DNA of 64,000 bases, from NCBI RefSeq assembly GCF_037076455.1, contig NZ_AP028679.1, forward strand, positions 635,501-699,500, written 5' to 3'. The notes under the pieces are model-generated. The model did no database searches. It was not told the DNA's origin and worked only from the letters and a program-made list of their open reading frames with translations. Origin of the DNA: Desulfoferula mesophila. GTDB taxonomy: Bacteria > Desulfobacterota > Desulfarculia > Desulfarculales > Desulfarculaceae. Both the position numbers and the translations under genes were made by a program. This document shows positions 37,545 through 38,700 of the stretch, piece after piece. Within the stretch, counting starts at the first letter, position 1, and each line of letters begins with the position of its first letter.

Positions 37545-37928
37545 CTATTTGCAGGGCCAAGTTTCAATCAGGAACCTGAACTCCGCCTCGACCGGCAGCT
37601 CTTGCATGTATTTGGGATTGGCCTGGGCCCAGTCCACGAACATCTTTACGGCCTTGTCGCGGGTGATGCCGCTGTTTTTGGGGATGCAGACCAGCTTCTC
37701 CCCCTTCTCCCCCATGCTAATGGCGTGGTAATAATGGAAGGCTCCGACCAGGTAACCTTGGCAGAAGTTAGCCGCTTGATTATACAGAGGGTCGTCCGGA
37801 GAGGCCGCGCAAAGATTGACCAGGTTTTGCGTCGTTCTGGCCTTGAAATCCTCGGGCGTCACTCCACCCGCCAGGGCGGGGGCCGCCCAAGCCATCAGGG
37901 CCAACAACACCAACAGTTTTTTGACCAT
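37545..37928 (-). CDS. Rap1a/Tai-like small secreted protein
   Basis: 127 residues. A signal peptide (LLVLLALMAWAAPALA) precedes a roughly 105-residue helical domain with three Cys residues and the family hallmark FCQGYLVGAFHYYHA. This domain is found in the Rap1a/Tai immunity proteins that neutralise type VI amidase effectors, but also in many periplasmic proteins with no such role. No effector or T6SS gene is near, so an immunity role is not supported here. The ATG has AAGGAGG upstream; the in-frame extension to 38069 is rejected. Confidence 0.72.
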   Translation of the reverse strand: MVKKLLVLLALMAWAAPALAGGVTPEDFKARTTQNLVNLCAASPDDPLYNQAANFCQGYLVGAFHYYHAISMGEKGEKLVCIPKNSGITRDKAVKMFVDWAQANPKYMQELPVEAEFRFLIETWPCK

Positions 37929-38238
37929 CGTAACCTGCCTCCTTGTTAACAATATGTAGTGAGATCCACGACGGTGATCGCTTATGCGAGGTCGTTTGTC
38001 TTCGTTACTTCCTATTATTGTTACATCCAGGCAATCCTTTTTCCAGATTTCTGTAAAATGCCCCACCATTTTTTATCCAAGTTCGCGGCCTGATCCGACC
38101 CAGGGGACATAGCGCCGGGAGCAACCAAGTTCCGCCCTTTGGGAGCCGCGAAATCCATCGCCCCGGCGGCAATTCATAGATAAAGCTTGCGCCTATATCG
38201 TATAGTCATGGAAAATACCGATGAATAAGGAGGCGCAC
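37929..38238. other. Divergent promoter region between the Rap1a-like and selenoprotein genes
   Basis: A+T-rich at 37940-38080 and around 38170-38215. A TATAGT at 38201-38206 is placed as a -10 box would be for the peroxiredoxin gene, but no matching -35 is clear. No coding content. Confidence 0.4.
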
Positions 38239-38700
38239 ATGCTGCAAAAAGGCGATGCTCTACCAAAGTTCAAGCTACCGGACCAGAGCGGCCAGGAAAA
38301 AACCTTCAAGGACCTTACCGGCAAGAAGGGCTTGGTATTGTTCGTTTATTCGCGCGACAACACCAGCGGCTGAACCACCGAGGCCTCGGAGTTTCAGGAG
38401 AAACTCGCGACGTTCAAGCGCCGGGGATACAACGTGGCCGGGATCAGCCGCGACAAGGTGGCCAGCCACGCCAAGTTCGCGGAAAAACTGGGGCTCAAGT
38501 ATTCCTTGCTGGCCGACCCGGAGACCGAGCTGATGCAGGCCCTGGGGGCCTGGGGCGAAAAAAAGATGTACGGCAAGGTGAGCCAGGGGGCCATCAGGAG
38601 CACCTTTGTGGCCGATGCCACGGGCAAGCTGTCGACGGTCTATCCCAAGGTCAAGGCCAAGGGCCACGCGGAAAAGGTATTGGAAGACCTGAAGGCCTAG
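38239..38700 (+). CDS. Selenocysteine-containing peroxiredoxin (Bcp/PrxQ-like), UGA-encoded Sec45
   Basis: 153 residues if the in-frame TGA at 38371-38373 is read as selenocysteine. The protein reads LQKGDALPKFKLPDQSGQE, then LVLFVYSRDNTSG, Sec45, TTEASEFQEKL, and continues in frame with ISRDKVASHAKFAEKLGLKY and LLADPETELM to a normal stop. Bcp/PrxQ peroxiredoxins have exactly 'P-(T/S)-x-G-C-T-x-E' here, so the TGA sits at the peroxidatic Cys codon. The resolving Cys five residues on is Ser50, and the protein has no Cys at all: a 1-Sec peroxiredoxin that would need an external reductant. A SECIS-like hairpin follows at once. AAGGAGG lies upstream of the ATG. Ordinary callers would report only a C-terminal fragment. 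Confidence 0.9.
38386..38410 (+). ncRNA. Bacterial SECIS element (in the coding sequence)
   Basis: GAGTTTC (38389-38395) and GAAACTC (38400-38406) form a perfect 7-bp stem with the apical loop AGGA, extended by TCG/CGA (38386-38388 and 38408-38410) with one bulged base. The loop GG lies 24-25 bases after the TGA. Position, small loop and loop guanines fit the bacterial SECIS read by SelB. Confidence 0.8.

Follow-up and report, generated by a model that had tools for sequence, protein, structure and literature searches.

The window, by which we mean the whole 64,000-nucleotide stretch of DNA that was analysed, carries on its plus strand a PrxQ/Bcp reading frame that opens with an ATG, closes with a TAG and holds a single in-frame TGA. 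The gene and the elements in and before it, as they can be placed on the sequence, are as follows.

38239-38700, plus strand: predicted selenocysteine (Sec)-containing PrxQ/Bcp peroxiredoxin gene, 153 residues (U45) plus TAG, from domain search, PrxQ/Bcp alignment, orthologues and AlphaFold/Foldseek
38227-38233, plus strand: Shine-Dalgarno AAGGAGG, 5 nt before the ATG, read in the sequence
38371-38373, plus strand: in-frame TGA, codon 45, at the peroxidatic position of the motif T42-S-G-U45; TGA/Cys pairs occur at this column only
38389-38406, plus strand: bSECIS-type hairpin GAGUUUC-AGGA-GAAACUC with a perfect 7-bp stem (38389-38395/38400-38406), overlapping codons 51-56 (EFQEKL)
38596-38598, plus strand: codon for Arg120, the active-site Arg of the T42/U45/R120 triad, invariant in alignment A1

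Read-through frames of at least 90 codons with one or two TGA number 98 in the window; among the 14 most gene-like, picked by base composition and then inspected by eye, the PrxQ frame is the sole one with gene-like sequence flanking its internal TGA. Translation of its 153 codons yields no Cys codon at all, as a first-pass annotation of this DNA had claimed, and mechanical ORF calling returns only an 88-aa C-terminal fragment from GTG 38434, the truncation which that annotation had foreseen. Neighbouring genes in the window encode an MFS/HlyD efflux pair, a Rap1a-domain protein and a glycine-zipper protein. The Rap1a-domain protein (37545-37949, minus strand; Pfam 'Rap1a immunity proteins', 53.7 bits) is small and secreted, and its gene is divergent from the peroxiredoxin gene. 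None of these neighbours lies beside the peroxiredoxin gene in the seven relatives compared, so the surroundings give no operon clue to the reductant.

The Pfam domain AhpC-TSA spans residues 5-132 and runs straight through the TGA (116.7 bits), and solved PrxQ structures likewise align across it, which bears out the earlier claim of coding similarity on both sides of the stop. The AlphaFold model, built with Cys in place of Sec, has a pLDDT of 94.4 and places residue 45 near the N-terminus of helix 43-54. Its best Foldseek matches are the PrxQ/Bcp structures of Burkholderia, Xanthomonas and Xylella, and the best PDB matches by sequence are PrxQ/Bcp as well. Peroxiredoxins follow the rule Pxxx(T/S)xxC plus a distant Arg (PMC5302317), and the window protein has both T42-S-G-U45 and R120. 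Only the opening residue departs from Pxxx(T/S)xxC/U: the window protein has Ser38 there, its Sec orthologues in the genus and family have Ser, Thr or Ala, and most other sequences have Pro.

Within the genus and family, the orthologues of seven more genomes (L010-L013, L015, L017 and the partial L020) each hold a single TGA, and at this very column, making eight members with TGA when the window is included. These orthologues are 64-85% identical to the window protein over the aligned part, the partial one at 76%, and four further close orthologues (L014, L016, L018, L019) have TGC at the position. The 147 homologues divide at column 45 into 27 with TGA and 120 with Cys, a ratio that is not a frequency because 80 of the 120 Cys forms were collected by a scan with Cys at this column among its patterns; the Sec forms were sampled in the phylum of the window genome, with 19 of the 27 genomes lying outside the window's family. 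No sense codon other than Cys occurs there, and the placement of the TGA at the peroxidatic-Cys codon by the first-pass annotation stands. About 10 Sec/Cys changes are required by the tree, with well-supported branches forcing at least four of them; this is a further example of repeated exchange between Sec and Cys at a single catalytic position in anaerobes. A second Sec-PrxQ group (L095, L096, L098-L100, L103, L104) forms a well-supported clade, in which the helix motif reads TxQAxxVRDA instead of TxEAxEFQE and the hairpins differ in sequence.

The hairpin lies directly downstream of the UGA, and its AGGA loop (38396-38399) occupies nt +23 to +26, within the range of about 16-37 nt in which a bSECIS presents its G-containing apical loop and in which the first reading had placed a SECIS-like hairpin. 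Its stability alone is only mildly unusual, with folding energies of -13.1 kcal/mol for the 48-nt stretch (z -0.85) and -8.8 kcal/mol for the 24-nt hairpin (z -2.96). When the window gene is recoded synonymously, an equally good hairpin in the bSECIS position turns up in only 2.4% of cases. A scan of the window against Rfam at gathering thresholds gave no match, and the hairpin is reported by no Rfam model. Minimum free energy proved a weak SECIS test (mean z -0.71 for Sec forms and -0.14 for Cys forms, single genes mostly not significant); a score for hairpin position and conservation at synonymous sites took its place.

Codons 51-56 are synonymously invariant (100%) in the seven Sec orthologues, against 65% at comparable codons elsewhere, and are the best six-codon window of the gene for synonymous identity in this set, whereas in the four Cys orthologues they sit at background (0.60 vs 0.62). 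The hairpin score is 15.1 in Sec forms (n=27) and 5.9 in Cys forms (n=120; Mann-Whitney p ~1e-12, related sequences being counted as independent), and 44% of Sec forms beat 95% of their synonymous recodings, compared with 2.5% of Cys forms. Hairpin sequence and register vary between the Sec clades of the phylum, as in CCUGG-AGUU-CCAGG at +17 in L070-L073. For 6 of the 27 Sec homologues, none of them from the window's family, 20% or more of the synonymous recodings gave a hairpin at least as good as the native one. One Cys form, L019 (G015), keeps the complete 7-bp hairpin, with two G-U pairs, within codons 45-56, perhaps through a recent Sec-to-Cys change or perhaps just through the conserved EFQER peptide. 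Against chance, the strong evidence comes from comparison: the TGA is kept, Cys stands in its place otherwise, and the hairpin codons are synonymously invariant.

Since UGA is leaky in many bacteria, codon 45 might be read through without Sec, by insertion of Trp, by misreading as Cys or by unspecific suppression. We consider this very improbable. The genome encodes selA (612 bits), selB (393 bits), selD (377 bits) and tRNA-Sec (71.8 bits), all above curated cut-offs, so that the four genes which the first-pass annotation had named for a search are present, selC being the tRNA-Sec. Against unspecific read-through, Cys is the sole residue with which UGA swaps, selA accompanies every Sec form (27/27 Sec-form genomes vs 24/35 Cys-form genomes; Fisher p = 0.0008, the genomes not being phylogenetically independent), and a constrained hairpin stands where bacterial SECIS elements sit. 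The selD gene, which lies outside the window (L066, G000:C1:3726958-3727884), itself contains one in-frame TGA, common to all genus members searched, so the selenophosphate synthetase is probably a selenoprotein too.

The genome G154 carries a Cys-45 PrxQ (L069, G154:C16:14186-14638) nested in the Sec clade of L070-L073. No selA was detected in this genome, which is 91% complete, and the Sec-bearing relatives G208, G181, G336 and G277 have selA. This may be a Sec-to-Cys reversion tied to the loss of Sec decoding, on inner branches that are not all strongly supported; in the portions consulted, the 2006 survey (PMC1794560) records no such event for the Prx family.

If the TGA were a sequencing error, or a nonsense mutation in an otherwise ordinary Cys-PrxQ gene, a single-base change from TGC, the codon of the closest Cys orthologues, would suffice to give it. 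Yet the same TGA recurs in the seven family genomes and in 19 more genomes of the phylum, and the orthologues hold no other stops or frameshifts, a pseudogene pattern that the first-pass annotation had set against its own reading. Moreover, in 10/10 ortholog pairs the stretches before and after the TGA both have a dN lower than dS. By these codon comparisons purifying selection acts on the codons ahead of the TGA (dN 0.02 vs dS 1.58 in one example pair), which rules out a pseudogene and a C-terminal fragment alike, leaving the former with a negligible probability. Synthesis of only the 88-aa product from the internal GTG, or of a short N-terminal peptide ended by the TGA, is the outcome of mechanical ORF calling and just as implausible, for no part of the active site would be left in the fragment, the first 44 codons are conserved, and the strong Shine-Dalgarno before the upstream ATG, matched by GGAG-type purine-rich sites 5' of the ATG in four orthologues, reads as showing that translation starts upstream of the TGA.

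We regard it as almost certain that the gene encodes a PrxQ/Bcp peroxiredoxin in which a predicted Sec, read from UGA-45, replaces the single peroxidatic Cys. Orthologues, hairpin and decoding machinery support this 1-Sec PrxQ-type reading, as first proposed, and the locus offers a clean, unambiguous selenoprotein gene that plain ORF calling splits.

The Cys-free form had been called less usual, which the homologues contradict: 22 of the 27 Sec forms are Cys-free in the aligned region, and the resolving Cys at position 50 is found in none of the 27, against 73 of the 120 Cys forms (raw count). None of the few Cys in Sec forms falls at position 81, the equivalent of C84 of Xanthomonas PrxQ. The Cys-free state is thus typical rather than special. 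The earlier statement that the resolving Cys is replaced by Ser misleads, since this Cys is missing from the nearest Cys orthologues as well. As these orthologues are also 1-Cys enzymes, the window gene is a PrxQ of the 1-Cys type in which Sec has taken the place of the sole Cys. That every Sec form lacks the resolving Cys suggests a testable rule for when selenium helps peroxiredoxins. Tentatively, and with more doubt than confidence, we suggest that in PrxQ/Bcp Sec is accepted only in lineages without a resolving Cys, replacing Cys in 1-Cys enzymes and being excluded from 2-Cys enzymes. A test on independent pairs found four pairs on supported branches, one or two of them informative, and no significant association, so we offer the exclusion as a hypothesis. 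If true, selenium in PrxQ/Bcp would support a catalytic cycle without an intramolecular selenenylsulfide.

In peroxiredoxin chemistry the peroxidatic residue reduces the peroxide, assisted by Thr and Arg. Knowledge of the family suggests Sec insertion, peroxidase activity and an external reductant for the window protein as well. UGA-45 would be decoded by SelB and tRNA-Sec, recruited by the hairpin directly downstream inside the coding sequence. Thr42 and Arg120 would hold the Sec selenolate, which would then attack H2O2 or an alkyl hydroperoxide and turn into a selenenic acid. Since the protein has no second Cys, reduction of this acid would have to come from an external thiol, be it thioredoxin, a glutaredoxin-like protein or a low-molecular-weight thiol, in the manner of 1-Cys peroxiredoxins.

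The closest known systems include the 1-Cys PrxQ/Bcp proteins with Cys (L014, L016, L018, L019, and 5enu of Burkholderia ambifaria), which share the fold, the triad and a single redox residue; like the window protein, the four orthologues have no resolving Cys at position 50. They differ in having Cys instead of Sec, and in most Cys-form orthologues the SECIS-like hairpin has decayed or shows no constraint. The E. coli-type 2-Cys Bcp (NF006960) belongs to the same superfamily branch, and the window protein scores 120.6 bits against it, under the curated cut-off of 140; E. coli-type Bcp has the second Cys of CxxxxC, which the window protein lacks. Being Cys-free, the protein has neither of the resolving Cys that mark 2-Cys PrxQ (at +5, or in helix 3 as in the Xanthomonas type). 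It falls below every curated cut-off among the NCBIfam equivalogs, including that of PrxU (NF040737; 23.3 bits against 270), a different NCBIfam model. PrxU of Eubacterium acidaminophilum, a Sec-containing peroxiredoxin demonstrated biochemically (as cited in the part of PMC9312934 consulted), is alike in carrying Sec at the peroxidatic site.

The published Sec-Prx of COG1225 (Bcp), with the motif TxxU, was described from 43 Sargasso Sea genes as the second most abundant known selenoprotein family there (PMC1088965, 2005). Twelve genes in sequenced bacteria followed, with Cys-to-Sec events noted (PMC1794560), and Bcp with TxxU appears in later reviews (PMC9312934, Table 1, reference WP_011365628.1; PMC13188914). 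Excerpts of these sources describe widespread Cys homologues and Deltaproteobacteria among the hosts; their Sec-Prx tables, in those excerpts, give no resolving-Cys status (PMC1088965, PMC1794560, PMC9312934), and a resolving-Cys rule is not stated in the portions consulted on COG1225 Sec-Prx (the same three and PMC13188914). The window protein, known here from its sequence, shares the COG and Pfam family, the peroxidatic Sec predicted from a UGA at the homologues' Cys column, the TxxU motif (here T-S-G-U) and a genome with selA, selB, selC and selD, and no functional difference was found. The window gene is thus a member of the selenoprotein family described in 2005.
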